Part shown: positions 46,296 through 56,225 of the stretch, piece by piece | Numbering within the stretch: the stretch's first letter is position 1 | How the letters are laid out: every line of letters starts with the position of its first letter | Source: Lachnospiraceae bacterium | GTDB lineage: Bacteria; Bacillota; Clostridia; Lachnospirales; Lachnospiraceae | Assembly (NCBI GenBank): GCA_017405805.1 | Contig: JAFQZU010000034.1 | Location: 1-64,000, forward strand | Reading direction: 5' to 3' | DNA length: 64,000 nucleotides | Notes under the pieces: model-generated | Seen by the model: only the letters and a program-made list of their open reading frames with translations | Databases searched by the model: none | What the model was told of the DNA's origin: nothing | Made by a program: the position numbers and the translations under genes

Positions 46296-49226
46296 ATGAA
46301 AAAGCAAAGTTTATTATCTGCAATCTTAGTCAGTATTCTTGTAGTAAGCAATCTTACGCCCGCTTTTTCTGCTATGGCTGCCGAAACGACCGAGGCGGTT
46401 CCTGAAATGGAGGAGAACTCTGAAATCTTAGAGGCTGGTGAAGCGGAAGAGCCCGAAGAAGAACTGCCTGTGAACGAAACCGATGAACCGGAAGAAGTAG
46501 CGGCAACGGACGAAACCGATGAACCCGAAGATGTGTCGGCTTTAGACGTAACCGATGAGCCGGAAGAAATGCCGGCTGCGAACGATACTGATGAACCGGA
46601 AGAAATGCCGGCTGCGAACGATACTGATGAACCGGAAGAAATGCCGACTACGGACGATACTGATGAACTGAGAGAAGTGCCGGCCACGGCTGAAACTGAC
46701 AAACAGGAAGAAGTGCCGGCTCCGGGAACAGACATAGAAACGGAAGAAGGCCGGTCTCCTGCGCAGGAAGTCCAAGATGTTCTGTATTATTGGGGCATTA
46801 ATAAAGACGGCGAGCTTCGAATCAGCAGCAAGGAACTGCCGCAGGAATATATCGGCGGAGCAGTGCTTCCTGATTCAAGAATACGAAATCCATGGGTCGA
46901 TGAAGGCGAGGATATCTCGTCTATAGTAGTAGGCGGAGAAGGGGATATCGTCGTTGTCGACAATGTCCGCGGCTTGTTTGGTGGAATGATGGAAATGGAA
47001 ATTACACCTTACCCTTTTTATCCCAATGTAATTTCCATTGACCTCACATATCTGGATACCTCCAATGTGACAGATATGAGCGGCATGTTTTCCTACTGCC
47101 CCAATCTGACAGATCTGACTCTCGGAGATATGGATACTTCCAATGTGGAGAATATGAGTGAAATGTTCTTTGGCTGCTCTTCCCTGACATCTCTGGATGT
47201 AAGCAGCTTTAATACATCGAGCGTAAAGAGCATGTCCTTTATGTTCGCTCGCTGCCGCGCATTGGAGACACTTGATCTAAGCAGTTTTGATACTTCAAAT
47301 GTTCGGGGAACAGCTTACATGTTCTACCGCTGCAGCAATCTGAAGACACTTGACTTAAGTTCTTTCGATGTATCGAATGTGGACTCTATGCAATATATGT
47401 TTTCTGACTGCTCTGCCCTCACCTCACTGGACATCAGCGGATGGAATGCTTCCAAAGTAAAGAACGTATACTACTTATTCAATAACTGCTCCAGCCTGAC
47501 AGATCTGGACACAGCAGTTTTCACTTCTTACGACATAACGGACACACAATATATGTTTTCCAATTGTCAGAAGCTGCGCACTCTGGATCTTAGCAGTTTC
47601 CACACATCGAACGTAACAAACATGAAGGAAATGTTCAGTTACTGCAGTAACCTTATCGCACTGGATCTTAGCAGTTTTGACACATCCAATGTAACGGACA
47701 TGGAGGGCATGTTCAGCTACTGCAGCAGGCTGCCCTCATTGGACCTGGGGCATTTCGATACATCCAGTGTTGTGAATATGAGGCGGATGTTCTACGAATG
47801 CCGGGGACTGACAAGCCTCGATGTCAGCAATTTCGATACCTCCAAAACCACAAATATGCGAGCCATGTTCTATTACTGCTGCACTCTTCCGGAACTGGAC
47901 GTCACGAACTTTGACACATCCAATGTTACAGATTTCGCTTACATGTTTGCCTGCTTACATGTACTCCCGAGGATTGATCTGAGCAGTTTTGACATGGCGA
48001 AGGGAACCAGTGTCGACGGGTTCTTTACCGGCTGCAAGGTGCTGTCCGGGATCATCTCACCTGTTTCAGTCCCCCGTTACTATCCGGTAAAGCTGACAAA
48101 AACCTTCCGGGATATTGCAGACGGGACGGAATATAAGACGTTGCCAGCTGGAAATCTAACGCTGGAGCCCATTAGGGTGACAGGCATTATACTGAACAGA
48201 CCAACGCTTACACTTTCCATGGGAGGTTCTGCTCAGCTTAAGCCTATAGTGACCCCGTCCAGCGCCCCCGATAAGGAAGTCATCTGGTCGACTTCCGATA
48301 AACTTGTTGCTTCAGTCACTTCCGATGGCATCGTAAAAGCAACCGGCGGCGGACGTGCAGTCATTACAGCCACGACAAAAGAAGGCGGCCTGAAGGCGAC
48401 CTGTACTGTTACTGTCAATAATCTTCCAGCTCCGATACTGAAATCTGCCGCCTGTGTATACGGCGGTGTCAGGATCACCTGGGACAAAGTCAACGGGGCA
48501 AGGATGTACCGCGTTTACCGCAAAGAGCCCGGCGGCAAATGGCAGACCATCGCACACACCCCGGGCACTTACTCTACCGATGTAACTGCCGTCTCCGGCA
48601 AAACATATATTTACACAGCGCGGTGCCTGTCACGTGACGAGAGTTTCTCCGTCAGCCCCTATGATGCCAACGGCCTTCGCATCACCTATATCGAAACGCC
48701 GGAGATCATTTCAGGTACCAGCGTCCTCGGTGGAATACAGCTGAAATGGAACAAGCCAAACGGCGCGGTACGCTTCCGTGTCTACCGCAGGAATCAGTCC
48801 GGAGCATGGGCCTGGCTTGCAGATACGACAGGCACAACTTATACGGACAAGACCACAGCTTCAGGCTATGCTTATACTTACACAGTCCGCTGCATGGAGG
48901 CGGACGGCAAGTCCTATGCAAGTTCCTTCAACCATGAAGGCACGACGGTTCTGTATATCGCGGCGCCGGAACTGGTCTCCGCCGTAAAAGTCACCGGCGG
49001 CGTAAAGGTGACATGGAAGAAACCGGCAGGCGCCGTAAACTTCAGGGTCTACCGCAAGAGCGGCACAGAAAGCTGGGAGATCCTGGCGGACACCACCTCT
49101 CTTACCTATACCGATCAGAGTGTCCGCAGCGGAACGACCTACACCTATACCGTCCGCTGTATTCGAAGTGATGGGAAGAAATCTGTCAGTATGTATGACT
49201 ACAATGGGAAGACTGTCAAGTACTGA
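46296..49226 (+). CDS. BspA-like leucine-rich-repeat surface protein
   Basis: A 976-residue secreted protein. A signal peptide (about 1-28, ending near AMAAET) is followed by an acidic region (about 30-150) with 12-residue repeats such as DEPEEMPAANDT. Thirteen BspA/DUF285-type repeats of about 24 residues then run from roughly 245 to 560 (consensus LDLSSFDTSNVTDMxxMFxxCSxL). A Big_2 immunoglobulin-like domain follows (about 620-705), then three fibronectin-III-like repeats of about 88 residues to the C-terminus. No LPxTG motif or C-terminal anchor helix is seen, so attachment is unclear. AGGAGG precedes the ATG. The base composition is lower in G+C than neighbours. It is flanked by direct repeats and is probably an adhesin. 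Confidence 0.9.
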   Translation: MKKQSLLSAILVSILVVSNLTPAFSAMAAETTEAVPEMEENSEILEAGEAEEPEEELPVNETDEPEEVAATDETDEPEDVSALDVTDEPEEMPAANDTDEPEEMPAANDTDEPEEMPTTDDTDELREVPATAETDKQEEVPAPGTDIETEEGRSPAQEVQDVLYYWGINKDGELRISSKELPQEYIGGAVLPDSRIRNPWVDEGEDISSIVVGGEGDIVVVDNVRGLFGGMMEMEITPYPFYPNVISIDLTYLDTSNVTDMSGMFSYCPNLTDLTLGDMDTSNVENMSEMFFGCSSLTSLDVSSFNTSSVKSMSFMFARCRALETLDLSSFDTSNVRGTAYMFYRCSNLKTLDLSSFDVSNVDSMQYMFSDCSALTSLDISGWNASKVKNVYYLFNNCSSLTDLDTAVFTSYDITDTQYMFSNCQKLRTLDLSSFHTSNVTNMKEMFSYCSNLIALDLSSFDTSNVTDMEGMFSYCSRLPSLDLGHFDTSSVVNMRRMFYECRGLTSLDVSNFDTSKTTNMRAMFYYCCTLPELDVTNFDTSNVTDFAYMFACLHVLPRIDLSSFDMAKGTSVDGFFTGCKVLSGIISPVSVPRYYPVKLTKTFRDIADGTEYKTLPAGNLTLEPIRVTGIILNRPTLTLSMGGSAQLKPIVTPSSAPDKEVIWSTSDKLVASVTSDGIVKATGGGRAVITATTKEGGLKATCTVTVNNLPAPILKSAACVYGGVRITWDKVNGARMYRVYRKEPGGKWQTIAHTPGTYSTDVTAVSGKTYIYTARCLSRDESFSVSPYDANGLRITYIETPEIISGTSVLGGIQLKWNKPNGAVRFRVYRRNQSGAWAWLADTTGTTYTDKTTASGYAYTYTVRCMEADGKSYASSFNHEGTTVLYIAAPELVSAVKVTGGVKVTWKKPAGAVNFRVYRKSGTESWEILADTTSLTYTDQSVRSGTTYTYTVRCIRSDGKKSVSMYDYNGKTVKY
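46570..46641 (+). repeat. 36-bp in-frame tandem repeat inside the BspA-like gene
   Basis: Two identical 36-bp copies encode DEPEEMPAANDT twice; diverged copies continue on both sides from about 46480 to 46690. Being multiples of three, they can expand or shrink without frameshift. Confidence 0.85.
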
Positions 49227-49785: not shown

Positions 49786-50961
49786 TTAATGCAGCCAGGA
49801 AATACACGTGATAATTCCCGAAACGACGATGGTGCTGATCGTCATGGCCGCGACGTTCGGCACTGTTCCATGGATGAATTCAGGACGTCTGTCCTCGATC
49901 CAATGGGCGATCGGTGCACCGATAATGCCGCCGAGAATGCCGGACACCAGAATGATCGGCATCGTGGCTCCGTGAAGGAGGATGCAGGCGGGCGATGTGC
50001 AGACGACCGGGACATAGGTGCCGTACCAACCGCGCTCCTGATACCGGCCGGTATACAAAAAGACGCCCAGACCGCCGGCAATAAACTGCGAGAGGAGGAT
50101 CGCAGGAAGAGCATTTGCTCCGCCGGTAACGAGACTGGGATGGATCATCCAGTCAATGATCACGCCAACGATAACGAAGAGACCGGCAATATCACTGCCG
50201 TAGAACTGGGGTTCCGTGAAATCCGCGATCGTTCTGCGAAGGATCCAGAAAGGGCTCTTATAGTCGATCCCGGGATCATTGATGTTGTTCGTTTCCGGGA
50301 TCGGATTTTTCTTCATCCAGGGGAGAACACGGCAGACACAGCCTGCAATGCATCCTGCGATGACCATGCAAAGAACGTTGTTGGTTGCTCCGGGTATCCC
50401 CAGATTAGCCGTGGCGCTCGAGAGCCAGTAAGCGGTCGGTGTACATAAAAGTGCACCAAGAACGCTGGCTGTCAGGAGGTTTACAATTCCGGGACCGTAC
50501 ATCAGCATCATTGAAGGCGGAACACTGACAATGACGATGAAGGTGGGAATCCAGGTATTTCCGAGATCAAACAGGTGCATATACCCGAACAGATATTCCG
50601 TGAGAAGCAGCGCGAGGATCTGAGACGCAAAAACCCAGGGCCAGATATGCGCACTTCCGTAGCATATCTCAATTCCGGCGTATTTGGACTTTCTGGTGCT
50701 GAGAAACCATGCGAGGATCGCGCCGATAAAAAGGAATATGGTCGAGATCGGCCCCGCAAAGAACTCGGGTTCCGTCCAGTTGATCAGGAACCAGAGAACC
50801 TGATTCTGCGGAGAATGGATATTCTGTACAAGCGCGTCGTATGCCGCCGCGCCCAAAGGACCGTGAACCGCACTGAGAATAAAATATAAGGCGAAACCAA
50901 TGCCGATCGTTAGTGCCAAACCGGCCGGTGAGCCATATTTTTCATATTTTTTTTCTTCCAT
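49786..50961 (-). CDS. Polytopic membrane protein of unknown family
   Basis: A 391-residue integral membrane protein that I do not recognise. About ten hydrophobic segments are visible, with a charged loop near the middle (WMKKNPIPETNNINDPGIDYK, about residues 215-235). The halves on either side share a W(T)EPEFF/FTEPQFYG motif followed by a helix (residues about 63 and 240), suggesting an internal duplication with inverted or parallel repeats as in many transporters. The start at 50961 follows GAGGG. It lies 126 bp after the tandem nitrilase gene in the same direction, so it is probably the importer of that enzyme's substrate or exporter of its product. Confidence 0.75.
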   Translation of the reverse strand: MEEKKYEKYGSPAGLALTIGIGFALYFILSAVHGPLGAAAYDALVQNIHSPQNQVLWFLINWTEPEFFAGPISTIFLFIGAILAWFLSTRKSKYAGIEICYGSAHIWPWVFASQILALLLTEYLFGYMHLFDLGNTWIPTFIVIVSVPPSMMLMYGPGIVNLLTASVLGALLCTPTAYWLSSATANLGIPGATNNVLCMVIAGCIAGCVCRVLPWMKKNPIPETNNINDPGIDYKSPFWILRRTIADFTEPQFYGSDIAGLFVIVGVIIDWMIHPSLVTGGANALPAILLSQFIAGGLGVFLYTGRYQERGWYGTYVPVVCTSPACILLHGATMPIILVSGILGGIIGAPIAHWIEDRRPEFIHGTVPNVAAMTISTIVVSGIITCISWLH

Positions 50962-51087: not shown

Positions 51088-52890
51088 TTATTTGAAGAAG
51101 TCATACACGGGTGCTTTGGGATCTACGATCACGTCATACATAATCGGGTGACGCATGCAGACCAGATCTTTTCTGCGGACCACATTGGTGGGATAGACAG
51201 AGTCGGGGGAATTGGAATTGTCCATCGTGATACTGATGATGCCTTCATCCGCTGCGCCCATGATCTTCTCGTTTCTGGGGAACAGGAAGGTATCGGGATG
51301 GAAGATTCCGCTGCGGCCGAAGCAGCCGTCTTCTGTGGTATTGGCAAACAGCGAATAGACGTTGTTCTCGCCGCCGCGCACTCTCCACAGATGCCAGTGG
51401 ATCGTGCTGAAGCCCATCGGGATCGGATAGTTGTGCCAGTTCTTCGTGCCTTTGAGGCCATAAGGCTTCGAGGTCTTCATGGCAGAAGGGAAGCAGATCA
51501 GGTCACAGCCCTGCAGGGCAAGAAGTCTTCCGGGCTCCGGGAACTCCGCATCATGACCGATCAGGATACCGACTCTGCCGACAGGCGTGTTGAAGTGCGG
51601 GAAGCCGAGATCGCCGGGGGCCGCCCAGGCTTTGTCCTTCTCCGCCACATGCATCTGTCTGTATTTTCCCGCAAGGCCTTCGGGACCTGTCAGAATTGCC
51701 GTGTTGTAAAGAGCATCGCCGTCCTTCTCCACCATGCCCGCAACGATGTAGATATGGTTCTTCATGGAAATGTCGATGATCTTGTAAACGGAATCGCCTT
51801 CCGCGGACTCTGCGAGCTTGGCTGCGGAAGCTGCGTCTACGGCGCCGGTCAGCATAAGCTCGGGGAATACGATGAGCTCACTGCCGGAAGCAGCTGCCTG
51901 TGCGGCTTTCTCTGCGATGATAGCGATATTGGCCTCTACATCGCCCTTGACAGGATTGACCTGCGCGACGGAGACGACAGATTTCTTTCCGGGCGGAAGC
52001 GGATCATATCCGTAAAGCGAATGGAAATCAAGCGGATTCCACAGATAGGTATTGTGCATGATATCCATATACTCTTTCGGGCGGCGCTCGAGGATCTTAT
52101 TGCCGCTGCCCTCGAAATCTTTCTTTCTCGCCTTCTCGATATCGACTTCCGCATACATGATGGGAGCCGTATCTTCATAAGCAGCGATCGTGCCGTCGGG
52201 GTTGATCAGCACGCTGCCGCCGCCAAACTGCACGGTGCGCTCAAGACCGTTTCTGTTGGACTCGAGGATGTAAACGCCGTTGTCATAGGCACGGGTAAGC
52301 CAGTAAGGGGCAGGCGTTTTCTCGGCCAGCCAGTTGCTGATGTGAACGATGATATCCGCCGCGCGCAGACCCTGAAGCCTTGCGGTCTCAATGAAGTGGA
52401 TATCCATGCAGATGGAGATACCGATGTTTCCGATCGGCGTCTCAAAGACCATGAAATCATGGTCTCCTTCTTTCGCCCACTTAGGCTCTGCGATATACTG
52501 GTGGTTCTTTCTGTGAACGCCTACGATTCCGTCGGGACCGATCAGCGCTGCAGAGTTGTAATAAATATCTGTCTCGGGATCCACTTCCGGCATGCCGACG
52601 ACGATGTAGCAGCCGTATTTTGACGCGATTGCCTGGAAACGATCCGTGGTCTTACCGGGGATGGTCTCGACATAAGGGGCAACTTCCGCACGATTGTACC
52701 AGCAGTAACCGGTCGTGGACATCTCGGGAGTTGCAATCAGCTTCGCGCCGTTTTTCGCAGCTTCTTCTACCAGAGCGACCTGCTCTGACACATTGCGTTC
52801 CACTTCTCCAAGCTTCGGGTCTACCGTCAGGGCTGCCACTTTGTACTTGGTGAATTCGGGCTTCTTAGCGCTTCCTACCTGAATGTTCAT
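51088..52890 (-). CDS. Tandem nitrilase-superfamily protein with inactive second domain
   Basis: A 600-residue protein made of two carbon-nitrogen hydrolase domains. The first (about 15-280) has the complete triad: Glu56 in ATPEMSTTGY, Lys128 in HRKNHQ and Cys161 in SICMDIHF. The second (about 305-590) keeps Glu344 in VFPELMLTG but has Gln412 where Lys is expected (KYRQMHV) and Gly445 where the nucleophilic Cys is expected (LIGHDAEFPE). It should therefore hydrolyse an amide or nitrile in the first domain only. AAGGAGG precedes the ATG at 52890. It is divergent from a histidine kinase with an amide-receptor-like domain and is followed by a membrane protein gene. Confidence 0.9.
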   Translation of the reverse strand: MNIQVGSAKKPEFTKYKVAALTVDPKLGEVERNVSEQVALVEEAAKNGAKLIATPEMSTTGYCWYNRAEVAPYVETIPGKTTDRFQAIASKYGCYIVVGMPEVDPETDIYYNSAALIGPDGIVGVHRKNHQYIAEPKWAKEGDHDFMVFETPIGNIGISICMDIHFIETARLQGLRAADIIVHISNWLAEKTPAPYWLTRAYDNGVYILESNRNGLERTVQFGGGSVLINPDGTIAAYEDTAPIMYAEVDIEKARKKDFEGSGNKILERRPKEYMDIMHNTYLWNPLDFHSLYGYDPLPPGKKSVVSVAQVNPVKGDVEANIAIIAEKAAQAAASGSELIVFPELMLTGAVDAASAAKLAESAEGDSVYKIIDISMKNHIYIVAGMVEKDGDALYNTAILTGPEGLAGKYRQMHVAEKDKAWAAPGDLGFPHFNTPVGRVGILIGHDAEFPEPGRLLALQGCDLICFPSAMKTSKPYGLKGTKNWHNYPIPMGFSTIHWHLWRVRGGENNVYSLFANTTEDGCFGRSGIFHPDTFLFPRNEKIMGAADEGIISITMDNSNSPDSVYPTNVVRRKDLVCMRHPIMYDVIVDPKAPVYDFFK

Positions 52891-52972: not shown

Positions 52973-53031
52973 TGAAAAATTAACGCTCTCCAAACAGGTA
53001 TTTTTTTTGTCGGGTCACAGTAAAATATTTG

Positions 53032-53059
53032 TCTATTATGAAATCTCGGACATAATAGA
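53032..53059. promoter_or_regulatory. Inverted repeat in the nitrilase-kinase divergent region
   Basis: TCTATTATG and CATAATAGA form a perfect 9-bp dyad with a 10-base centre. A TATAAT for the kinase gene begins 13 bases downstream (53072-53077), so the dyad covers its -35 region and lies 60 bp upstream of the nitrilase -10. It is a good candidate operator for the AraC-type response regulator. Confidence 0.5.
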
Positions 53060-53159: not shown

Positions 53160-55100
53160 ATGTCAAAAAATGAAGTAAGAAACTTTTCGTCAGAAGAAGA
53201 TGTGGACAGGTATTTTCTGACAGTATCACATGAACTAAAAGCTCCTTTGACAGAGATTGCGGCATACGCGAAGATCGTTGAGGAGGACTGCCGGGAGATC
53301 TTACCCGATCAGGCAAGAGACGACTTGAATTCCATTCGCAGGATCTGTGACAGTACCCTGACGCTGATCCAAGTCTACGTCGAATATTCACGCAGCCAGT
53401 TCTCAAAACTCGAATTGGAAAAGATCAATCTGCGGGAGATGATCGAAGAATCCTTCCGGCAGCTGACGGATCCCTTCCGGGAGAGAGAGATCCGGCTGAT
53501 CCTGCCCGAGAAGGTTCCGGACCTCATAGCGGATCGTATGTTATGTATGCAGCTGATCAATAATATCCTGGCAAACAGCATTAAATTTACAACGTCCCGG
53601 AAAAACGCGCAGATCAGGCTCCGGTATGTCAGGAACGAGAAAATGACGCAGTTCTGTTTTGAGGACAACGGCGAAGGTGTCAGCGAAGAATTTGCGAAAA
53701 GGGCCTTTGATCTTTTTGAAAAAAGTGACGAAGAGAGCAATGCAGGCGGGAGCGGGATCGGACTGAACCTGGTAAAAAGGATCGTAGAACGTTTCCGTGG
53801 AAATGTTTCGATCTCTTCCGTACAGGGAGAAAGTTTTTCAATCCGGGTGGACCTTCCCAACGAAATGGTCGTTATGCCGCTGTCCAGAGAAGGGGATGAG
53901 AACAGCAGAGAGCTTCGGATCGGCGTGATCGGTGCCCTTTCAGGAGACTATTCCGGAATTGCGCCGTGCAGAAGATTTGCATATGAGCTGGCTGTAGAGG
54001 AAATAAACCGGACAGGCGGTATCCTGGGACGAAAAGTGCGCCTTCTGTTCCGGGATTTTCATTCCGATCTGTCGGCGGTTCCGTCGATTGCCTGGGAACT
54101 GGCGGCGGTTGACCGGGTCGACGTACTGATGGGCGGACAGCTCTCCTCTGCCCGTGAATATGTCCGTGACGTCGCTCACAAAATGAAGATCCCCTACTTT
54201 TTCAATGCGTTATATGAGGGGGGACTTGCCGACCACTATACCTTTTGCATCTCCAATACGCCCGAGCAGAATGTCTATCCCATGATCGACCAGATGCTCC
54301 CGGTATACGGCCGAAAGTGCTATATCATTGCAGCGGATTACAATTACGGCGTCCTCTCCGCGGAATGTACGCGGCATTATATTGAAAACAGCGGCGCCTC
54401 CGTCGTCGGGATCGAGTATTTTACGCCGACAAAACCGGATTTTAAAGATTCGATCGAAAAGATCAACGATGCGGATCCGGATATTCTCCTCTCTTTTTGC
54501 GTGGGCAATAATCAGGAGTGCTTCCACGAGCAGTGGTACCGCTTCAAAAAGCGGGATATTCCGCTCATTTCCACGATCGGGATCGGGCTCTCTTCTCTGC
54601 ACAGGACGCTTCCGCCGCCCGTCATGGCAAATACTTTTTTCATGAGTTCGTATATTGAAGAACTGGATACGCCCGAAGCACTCTCTTTTTCCGCCAAAAT
54701 AAGGAAGCGGCATCCGAAGAGCGAAGCTCCGTATATCGAATTCGACGCAGAGACCGCCTATACCGCGGTATATCTTTACAAGAAAGCAGTGGAAGCGGCC
54801 GGGTCGACAAATACAGAGGACGTCATCTCGGCCCTGGAAAGCGGCAGGATCACCTTCCACGGGCCCGGAGGGCAGGTCACCGTGCAGGGGGAGGACCACC
54901 ATGTCATAAGAGACGTCACAATGTTCCGGGTCGATTCACAGCACAAAATAAAAAAAGAAATGTACTTCCCCGGATTGAAAACTAACTTTGTGGAGGAGGC
55001 ACTGAAGGAAGACTGTAAAAGAGATACTAATCTTCGTGACTTGGGGACGGATGCCCCGAACATTCAATACAACGTTCTTTACAACAGAATCGTTCAGTAA
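53160..55100 (+). CDS. Cytoplasmic histidine kinase fused to an amide/urea-receptor-like domain
   Basis: A 646-residue protein with inverted architecture. Residues about 15-85 are a HisKA dimerisation domain with phospho-acceptor His24 in TVSHELKAPLTEI. About 120-235 is a HATPase: N-box ending N139 in NILANSIKFTT, DNGEG at 169-173, GGSGIGL at 196-202. Residues about 250-640 form a periplasmic-binding fold most like Peripla_BP_5 (AmiC/FmdD/UrtA group): RIGVIGALSGDYSG, EINRTGGILGRKVRL, AETAYTAVYLYKKAVEAAG and FHGPGGQVTVQGEDHH. No signal peptide or membrane helix is seen, so the receptor is cytosolic like AmiC. It is divergent from the nitrilase and followed by the response regulator. Confidence 0.9.
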   Translation: MSKNEVRNFSSEEDVDRYFLTVSHELKAPLTEIAAYAKIVEEDCREILPDQARDDLNSIRRICDSTLTLIQVYVEYSRSQFSKLELEKINLREMIEESFRQLTDPFREREIRLILPEKVPDLIADRMLCMQLINNILANSIKFTTSRKNAQIRLRYVRNEKMTQFCFEDNGEGVSEEFAKRAFDLFEKSDEESNAGGSGIGLNLVKRIVERFRGNVSISSVQGESFSIRVDLPNEMVVMPLSREGDENSRELRIGVIGALSGDYSGIAPCRRFAYELAVEEINRTGGILGRKVRLLFRDFHSDLSAVPSIAWELAAVDRVDVLMGGQLSSAREYVRDVAHKMKIPYFFNALYEGGLADHYTFCISNTPEQNVYPMIDQMLPVYGRKCYIIAADYNYGVLSAECTRHYIENSGASVVGIEYFTPTKPDFKDSIEKINDADPDILLSFCVGNNQECFHEQWYRFKKRDIPLISTIGIGLSSLHRTLPPPVMANTFFMSSYIEELDTPEALSFSAKIRKRHPKSEAPYIEFDAETAYTAVYLYKKAVEAAGSTNTEDVISALESGRITFHGPGGQVTVQGEDHHVIRDVTMFRVDSQHKIKKEMYFPGLKTNFVEEALKEDCKRDTNLRDLGTDAPNIQYNVLYNRIVQ

Positions 55101-55160
55101 CCGGAAAAAACATCGACACGCGCATCTGAAAGCCCGCTATTATGCTCTCGGAGGTGGTCT

Positions 55161-56225
55161 ATGTTCAGGATAATGGTAATAGATGATAAGGAAGTATTTC
55201 TGAGAGTGGTCAGCAGAATGCCGCTCTTTAATAATAATGCTTCGAAAGTGAAGGTTGCCTGGACATTAAGAAGCGCGGATCAAGCACTGTCCATACTGCG
55301 GAATGATCAGGTGGATATTGTCATAACGGATATCCGGATGCCCAAGATGAGCGGTCTTGATCTGCTGAGAGTCATACAGAGAGAGAAACTATGTAATTGC
55401 ACGATCCTTATGAGTGAATATACAGAGTTTTCCTATGCCAGGCAGGGCATTCTTCTCGGCGCCTTTGACTATATGGTCAAACCCTTGGATGAAGATTCCT
55501 TCGAGACAGCCATAGCAAGAGCAGTGCGGTATCTGGAGAAACTGGAAACCATGCGCAAAAAGGATACTGTATCCTCCGAGAAACTGTTTCGAATGCTGCT
55601 GTTCAGCAGCAAAGAGGAGCTGTCTGAGAAGTTTTCCCAGATTGAAGAGCAGCAGCTCAGGAAAATGGATCCGGAAGAGATCCTCCAGATCGTGGAACAG
55701 GTCCGGAAACAGCTTCTGGATTCCTTCTCGGCTAACTATCCTTATCTCGAAAGATATCTTCCCATAAAGGAGCTGCTCTCCGCTCCCCTCCCGGGAGAAC
55801 CTGAGGATGCAGCCTCCGCCTTTTTGCGTCTGAAAGAGAGCCTCCTGTTCCTGCACCGAAAACTGCCGCTGTTTTATACCAAATCCGAAAACCGCCAGGT
55901 GCAGAACATCTGGTACTATACCATCATGAACGCGGACAGTCCCTGCAGACTGGCTGATACGGCAGGGCGTTTTTTCCTGAACACCAGTTATCTGAGCAGC
56001 CTGTTCAGGAAGGAAACCGGGATCTCTTATAAAAGCTTTGTTCAGGAACTGAAAATGGAGCGTGCCCGATACCTGCTGGGGTTTTCGAGCTTGCGGATCT
56101 TCGAGATCGCGGCGCTTCTGAATTTTACGGATGCGGAGTATTTTCGGAAGAGTTTTAAGGCCTCCTCGGGGATGTCTCCTGCAAAGTTTGATTATGTGGA
56201 TTATATACGCCGTACTATACAGTGA
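55161..56225 (+). CDS. AraC-type response regulator
   Basis: A 354-residue two-component regulator of the YesN type. The receiver domain (1-120) has the acidic pair Asp8/Asp9, phospho-acceptor Asp57 in IVITDIRMPKMSG and the Lys of DYMVKPL. A helical linker (about 130-240) leads to a C-terminal AraC-type double HTH (about 250-350: GRFFLNTSYLSSLFRKETGISYKSF, then IFEIAALLNFTDAEYFRKSFK). GGAGG precedes the ATG. It is 60 bp after the kinase gene and should be its partner. The likely targets are the divergent nitrilase and membrane protein genes. Confidence 0.92.
   Translation: MFRIMVIDDKEVFLRVVSRMPLFNNNASKVKVAWTLRSADQALSILRNDQVDIVITDIRMPKMSGLDLLRVIQREKLCNCTILMSEYTEFSYARQGILLGAFDYMVKPLDEDSFETAIARAVRYLEKLETMRKKDTVSSEKLFRMLLFSSKEELSEKFSQIEEQQLRKMDPEEILQIVEQVRKQLLDSFSANYPYLERYLPIKELLSAPLPGEPEDAASAFLRLKESLLFLHRKLPLFYTKSENRQVQNIWYYTIMNADSPCRLADTAGRFFLNTSYLSSLFRKETGISYKSFVQELKMERARYLLGFSSLRIFEIAALLNFTDAEYFRKSFKASSGMSPAKFDYVDYIRRTIQ

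Follow-up and report, generated by a model that had tools for sequence, protein, structure and literature searches.

A 64,000-nucleotide stretch of a Lachnospiraceae bacterium genome (assembly GCA_017405805.1, contig JAFQZU010000034.1; hereafter the window, meaning this whole stretch) contains a gene in which a histidine kinase core is followed, within one protein, by a receptor domain of the binding-protein type. We propose that this fused protein and the response regulator encoded next to it probably form a soluble, amide-sensing two-component system that controls a divergently transcribed double-domain nitrilase gene. The analysis shows the domains and soluble architecture of the protein, its conservation, its pairing with the regulator gene, its pocket residues, and the kinship of both of its halves with amide-importer operons; from these we infer the class of ligand, a coupling by way of the CA domain, the partner in phosphotransfer, the promoter acted on and the sign of its control.

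Architecture and conservation of the fused protein

The original prediction placed the kinase core first and a Peripla_BP_5-type domain at residues 250–640, and a Pfam search of the 646-residue protein agrees on both counts. HisKA (E 1.4e-6; 28.7 bits against a cut-off of 26.9) and HATPase_c (E 4.6e-19) precede a receptor domain matched by Peripla_BP_6 (E 1.1e-60) and by Peripla_BP_5 (residues 252–594, E 1.6e-50) (Table 1). When a profile built from three homologues was compared with crystal chains, residues 16–235 matched histidine kinases (e.g. 2c2a, E 8e-25), and the C-terminal part matched AmiC chains 1qnl and 1pea (over residues 253–581, E 3-4e-30), the UrtA chain 7s6e (E 8e-39) and chain 8tg1 (E 2.6e-54). 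On the strength of this homology, we assign a kinase fold to the N-terminal part and a binding-protein fold to the C-terminal part. The kinase boxes are intact: a phospho-accepting His24 lies in the H-box, and the N, G1 and G2 boxes read NILANSIKF (135), DNGEGV (169) and GSGIGL (197), which identifies the N-terminal half by its motifs as a HisKA-type kinase. The H-box itself reads HELKAP in the window and in a second Lachnospiraceae species (G008), and HELKTP in three more distant homologues (L023, L027 and L028).

The protein had been predicted to be cytosolic, and it contains no membrane or signal segment by hydropathy, which reaches a maximum of 1.04 with no stretch above 1.6. Because only six codons separate the start of the gene from the upstream stop, an upstream signal peptide or membrane helix is impossible in this frame. 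Since, moreover, His24 has just 23 residues ahead of it, no candidate sensor other than the C-terminal domain is visible. Behind this domain lies a tail with the motif QYN; by inspection, free amide-type binding proteins end in motifs like it (QYT, QFT and QYV).

Table 1. Coordinates of the fused gene, its domains and the neighbouring features in the window
Feature	Position	Strand	Description and basis
Fused histidine kinase / binding-protein receptor gene	53160..55100	+	646 amino acids (stop included); open reading frame, Pfam, homologues in seven species
HisKA (DHp) domain	53220..53396	+	Residues 21–79, holds His24; Pfam, box reading
HATPase_c (CA) domain	53532..53858	+	Residues 125–233; Pfam, box reading
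Peripla_BP_6 receptor domain	53913..54944	+	Residues 252–595; Pfam, profile match, pocket alignment
C-terminal tail	54945..55097	+	Residues 596–646, QYN motif; alignment, inspection
Response regulator	55161..56225	+	Receiver 55170–55514 and AraC-type helix-turn-helix 55962–56189; Pfam
Double-domain nitrilase/amidase-superfamily enzyme	51088..52890	-	Divergent from the kinase; two CN_hydrolase stretches; Pfam
Membrane protein	49789..50961	-	391 amino acids; without a Pfam match at E 0.1 or an NCBIfam match at 0.01
Candidate operator, divergent intergenic region	53020..53058	.	Block GTAAAATATTTGTCT, overlapping CTATTATG-10 nt-CATAATAG in the window

A search for homologues with the same domain order, which the original prediction had called for, found the fusion in seven species: two Lachnospiraceae (that of the window and G008), one Gracilibacteraceae (L027) and four of the Eubacterium callanderi genus (G794, G1482, G1483 and G1484; locus L028 is G1482 by matching coordinates). 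The fused order is a conserved architecture and not a product of chance. The window's genome is a 40-contig assembly that is 84% complete, in which an assembly or annotation artefact might have joined two genes; this explanation, to which we give next to no probability, is refuted by the homologues, since the seven species include the strain record Eubacterium callanderi FD and three fused homologues align across the kinase/receptor junction with short gaps only. The Eubacterium callanderi homologues are about 40% identical to the window protein, and this species is held in culture.

Among 61 relatives, full-length fused proteins are encoded by the window's genome and G008, and a third match (G004) is a free binding protein, 24% identical. 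An alignment-based contig scan returned 35 loci, three of them full-length (L026, which is the same contig as that of G008, the Gracilibacteraceae locus L027, and L028 from Eubacterium callanderi FD), with the other 32 lying within query residues 1–286; a first contig scan with a single-sequence query found no relative. Samples that include the window's genome gave full-length fusions in 1 of 392 (order), 2 of 391 (class), 1 of 398 (phylum) and 1 of 348 (family) genomes. In the family of G794 the count was 4 of 40, all within one genus, where 4 of 5 genomes carry it. The remaining matches in these samples cover the kinase part only or the receptor part only; the scans used few seed patterns and strict E-values, often with three scored candidates per genome, and may miss remoter members. 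A plasmid search, in which 3363 of 72,556 records matched, gave no place covering 80% of the query. An apparent fusion in Variovorax paradoxus (query 181–595) has no kinase part and is an exported binding protein of the Tat type.

G008 keeps the whole four-gene set (membrane protein 84% identical, kinase-receptor 69%), and by inspection its flanking genes differ. Between the window and this relative (locus L024), the receptor is 77% identical and the kinase 60%. A search of the window's genome with the full protein at E 0.001 gave 13 matches, 12 of them other kinases and none a separate receptor, in an assembly that is 84% complete; the G008 genome has no second receptor at E 1e-8, and those of L027 and L028 have one distant second match each (24% and 23%).

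Ligand pocket and origin of the two halves

A passage of PMC10392092 lists the residues of UrtA that contact urea together with their mutants, among which those of W120 and N246 have lost urea binding or show it greatly reduced. All nine residues (W-S-Y-Q-E-Y-F-N-S) are kept in 19 of the 36 rows of our receptor alignment. The window differs at six of the nine, with Q, F, L, Y, V and G in place of W120, Y141, Q144, F192, N246 and S274, the last of these having an uncertain equivalent (G476 by MAFFT, G474 by hand count of the profile alignment). Read at W120, S122, Q144, Y190 and N246, the window has Q, S, L, Y and V, which is not the urea pocket of UrtA. In all five fused rows Trp120 is replaced by Q or T and Asn246 by V, and the equivalents of Ser122, Glu146 and Tyr190 (S329, E353 and Y394) are kept; AmiC has Y and V at the Trp120 and Asn246 positions. 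Ser329, Glu353, Tyr394, Tyr396 and Val448 are invariant in four aligned fused proteins and in the five alignment rows, and we predict that they form an amide-type pocket of the receptor domain.

Could the ligand of the same machine be urea, bound by a UrtA-type receptor? The NCBIfam names prompted this idea: TIGR03669 (urea_ABC_arch) is the best model for the fused protein, the UrtA chain is matched strongly, and the Gln144 equivalent is kept in three of the five fused rows. The TIGR03669 score of 291.2 bits is, however, far under its cut-off of 494.8, and the other UrtA-type model, TIGR03407, is likewise below its own (138.4 against 492.75). The fused rows are without the two residues needed for urea binding in UrtA, according to the same passage of PMC10392092, and TIGR03669 also passes on a receptor that lacks both and stands by nitrile hydratase and amidase genes. 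We set urea aside on the pocket residues and hold it to be quite unlikely; an amide is favoured on the basis of the pocket and the neighbours.

TIGR03669 passes its cut-off at L116:8863-10155 and L114:5933-7246, both of which are without Trp120 and Asn246. The former receptor, on a Klebsiella plasmid, lies beside annotated nitrile hydratase, amidase and acetamidase/formamidase genes, and the latter beside an FmdA-like gene; the urea name of the NCBIfam model may be wrong for this receptor subgroup. On the same plasmid another receptor, which is AmiC-like, adjoins a protein with an ANTAR domain (L116:14750-16553), and the amide/nitrile pathway there may be run by AmiC/AmiR logic.

To place the receptor we used a tree of 36 rows, after dropping identical copies and L113_free_424, a Variovorax row that duplicates the gene of the Tat row. 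All five fused receptor domains fall into a single clade (100/100), nested in a group of ten rows (97/93) together with five exported binding proteins, from Lachnospiraceae SIG333 (L102), G1274 (L104/L114), the Klebsiella plasmid (L116), G397 (L012) and Variovorax. By this tree, the fused receptor nests in a clade of amide-type ATP-binding cassette (ABC) importer binding proteins. The members of that clade are exported and adjoin an ABC permease, whereas the fused domain does neither: no permease was seen beside the fused gene by inspection of open reading frames (ORFs) and a family scan of five neighbouring proteins. The original prediction had likened the receptor to AmiC, which is right for the fold but not for the closest kinship, as AmiC groups elsewhere with the second Klebsiella receptor (100/99). 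A grouping of AmiC with the fused clade was rejected (p-AU 5.8e-7 for AmiC alone, 1.6e-4 together with its Klebsiella relative), in a topology test that flagged AmiC as a long row of unusual make-up, open to a pull by the model.

The branch leading to the fused clade is long (1.27). This length, and the six altered positions of the nine in the urea site, could mean that the receptor domain no longer binds a small ligand and serves as a dimerisation or protein-docking module, with the kinase under the control of some other input, for instance from a partner protein. The five invariant residues Ser329, Glu353, Tyr394, Tyr396 and Val448 speak against such a loss, as does the better conservation of the receptor domain than of the kinase, and we consider it unlikely.

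The kinase half was placed in a tree of the best 42 distinct rows, with later rows, those with E over 1e-15 and matches of fewer than 150 query residues dropped. The five fused kinases group with two membrane kinases, L029 of SIG333 and L111 of G1274 (100/100). The receptor and kinase trees both point to SIG333 and G1274, two Lachnospiraceae in each of which one operon thus holds close unfused relatives of the receptor and of the kinase. The SIG333 operon encodes a lipoprotein receptor, two permeases, two ATPases, an FmdA amidase, a glutamine-synthetase-like protein, a double nitrilase, a second nitrilase, a regulator and the membrane kinase (amidase, double nitrilase, regulator and kinase named by Pfam, the rest by inspection). 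Its double nitrilase is 57% identical to that of the window over 579 aligned positions. The G1274 operon encodes a C69-like hydrolase, a lipoprotein receptor, permeases, ATPases, an FmdA-like protein, a regulator and the membrane kinase (receptor named by NCBIfam, the rest by inspection).

These relationships suggest that the kinase of an importer operon took over the importer's own binding protein as its sensor. A fuller account, on which we are evenly divided, is that this kinase captured the extracellular binding protein, which moved to the cytosol and now acts on the kinase from beyond its ATPase domain; histidine kinases would thereby have gained a new input topology, and the AmiC strategy would have been invented a second time, independently, with a phosphorelay in place of antitermination.

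Neighbouring genes and the proposed mechanism

The gene downstream of the kinase begins after a gap of 60 bases. It had been predicted to encode an AraC-type partner, and the partner is there, but it is not a plain AraC protein: a receiver (residues 4–118, E 9.8e-20 by Pfam), with its acceptor Asp57 in the motif TDIRMP, precedes the AraC helix-turn-helix, which by domain content makes it a receiver-AraC (YesN-type) response regulator. This regulator, the one window gene scanned for ANTAR, has no Pfam match to that domain.

On the other side, the anticipated amide-type neighbour is a nitrilase gene in which Pfam recognizes two CN_hydrolase stretches. An ORF list starts it at a GTG (52965), and translation more probably begins at the ATG at 52890. 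At what we take to be the catalytic-Cys motif of the family, the first CN_hydrolase domain has GISICMDIHF and the second has GILIGHDAEFPE (by eye); the L024 copy shares the GHD. The second half thus seems to be without a catalytic Cys. The membrane protein gene that lies beyond the nitrilase is confined, among the 61 relatives, to the 2 genomes with the fused kinase.

The surroundings differ in the more distant species. The ORFs for the regulator and the fused protein share four bases in L027, where genes for an FmdA_AmdA amidase and a major-facilitator carrier come next. At both Eubacterium loci, L023 and L028, the order is regulator, C69-family hydrolase, putative glycerate-kinase-like gene and fused kinase. 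The amide reading draws on these neighbours, namely the double nitrilase, the amidase of L027 and the C69-family hydrolase of Eubacterium. If the receptor sensed a compound that has nothing to do with the nitrilase, for instance a branched-chain amino acid, the adjacency of the two genes would be incidental; we judge this very unlikely, as the operons of the close free receptors include amidase-type, nitrilase, glutamine-synthetase-like or nitrile hydratase genes, and the 2 of 61 genomes that carry the membrane protein are those that carry the fused kinase.

The divergent region between the nitrilase and kinase genes spans roughly 270 bp. Within it, the block GTAAAATATTTGTCT (53020–53034) is conserved in the relative L024, a comparison of two sequences only, and an 8-bp inverted repeat, CTATTATG/CATAATAG (53033–53040/53051–53058), is not clearly kept there. 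We regard the block and the 53033–53058 repeat as candidate regulatory sites. L024 has four tandem copies of AATATCTCAAA with 9–10 nt spacing just before the kinase start of the G008 homologue (L024:8871-8910), and no direct repeats turned up in the corresponding region of the window.

Taken in sequence, the mechanism would run as follows. The C-terminal Venus-flytrap domain, derived from the binding protein of an amide-type ABC importer, would bind a small amide-like compound in the cytosol, and its closure on this ligand would alter the freedom of the CA domain and so shift the balance of autophosphorylation at His24. Phosphate would then pass from His24 to Asp57 of the adjacent receiver-AraC regulator. 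The regulator is expected to act on the divergent region, in either direction of control, affecting the nitrilase and membrane protein genes and perhaps its own operon. The membrane protein is a possible carrier.

Several observations weigh against this reading. The pocket varies among the fused proteins: the two Lachnospiraceae have F348 and L351, the three remaining rows have N or D at 348 together with Q351, and the group may therefore comprise two ligand subtypes. The Eubacterium neighbours include the glycerate-kinase-like gene, which does not point to amides. In the L027 homologue there is one hydrophobic stretch (442–460, peak 1.74) inside the receptor domain, which may be a core strand of that domain. 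Ala28 of the HELKAP box departs from the T or N usual at what we take to be the phosphatase-motif position, and such a kinase may be hard to switch off. As to a single origin, monophyly of the fused kinases alone is supported at 87/78, and the kinase half by itself may leave room for more than one fusion, or for loss. Moreover, the regulator tree (ORFs outside 250–460 amino acids dropped) splits the five fused-kinase partners, requiring 2 changes, and the form with a single group appears in 0% of 200 bootstrap trees; this tree is compatible with the proposed origin without uniting the five partners.

Comparison with known systems

As described in a passage of PMC5259723, AmiC/AmiR of Pseudomonas consists of a cytosolic amide receptor and an antiterminator. 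The window's receptor resembles AmiC in its cytosolic binding-protein fold, in the Val at the UrtA Asn246 position and in its setting among amide-degrading enzymes. AmiC is, however, a separate protein that holds the antiterminator, whereas the receptor here forms one protein with a kinase whose gene adjoins that of a receiver-AraC regulator; their receptor clades differ, and the adjacent regulator in the window has no ANTAR domain. Binding proteins of urea- and amide-type importers (UrtA, TIGR03669, TIGR03407) share the domain, and their amide-type subgroup is the closest kin found, but they are exported beside an ABC permease; the fused domain is predicted to be cytosolic and does not keep the urea pocket residues. 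The membrane kinases L029 and L111 have the same kinase core and the same type of receiver-AraC partner; they differ in carrying N-terminal membrane segments and a C-terminal core, in contrast to the N-terminal core of the soluble window protein, with its sensor after it. These unfused relatives in amide-type importer operons would offer a before-and-after pair for a transport protein becoming a sensor.

In CheA, input enters through P5, an SH3-like coupling domain C-terminal to CA; the position after CA is alike, but P5 is not a ligand receptor. As a soluble 646-residue kinase whose sole visible input is a flytrap, the fused protein would be a test case for signal entry through the CA domain. 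The C-terminal domain of NrtC is kin to the binding protein NrtA. According to a passage of PMC6603209, NrtC of cyanobacteria has a cytosolic ATPase to which a regulatory domain is fused at the C-terminus; this domain has a putative nitrate site and has been proposed as a sensor of conditions inside the cell. Unlike the window's protein, NrtC regulates a transporter ATPase, without a phosphorelay.

In LuxPQ and XylFII-LytS, a binding-protein fold informs a histidine kinase, with sensing outside the membrane. The same fold informs the kinase in BvgS/EvgS, as covered in a passage of the review PMC8534201, which describes binding-protein sensors in the periplasm and notes that kinase domains sensing cytoplasmic signals are usually PAS or GAF. 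All of these known cases sense outside the membrane, whereas here such a sensor would follow the ATPase domain and lie in the cytosol. In line with the original prediction, which knew of no such system, no description of the kinase-then-binding-protein order was found in the open-licence papers searched, although domain databases may already list the combination. The fused protein could also be a possible start for small-amide biosensors.

Some further observations concern other loci. In the phylum sample, L091, L092, L093 and L094 place a receiver-HisKA kinase, a receiver-AraC regulator and a large membrane kinase beside a urea-type importer and urease-like genes (by inspection), possibly a related urea-control module. 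In the window, the cassette has a GC content of 0.508 against a mean of 0.557 (standard deviation 0.042 in 2-kb windows), a departure too weak to argue horizontal transfer. The product of 46296–49226 (+), 976 residues long, begins with a signal-like segment and contains acidic DTDEPEE repeats along with numerous repeated units of SSFDTSNV type; by eye it is BspA-like.

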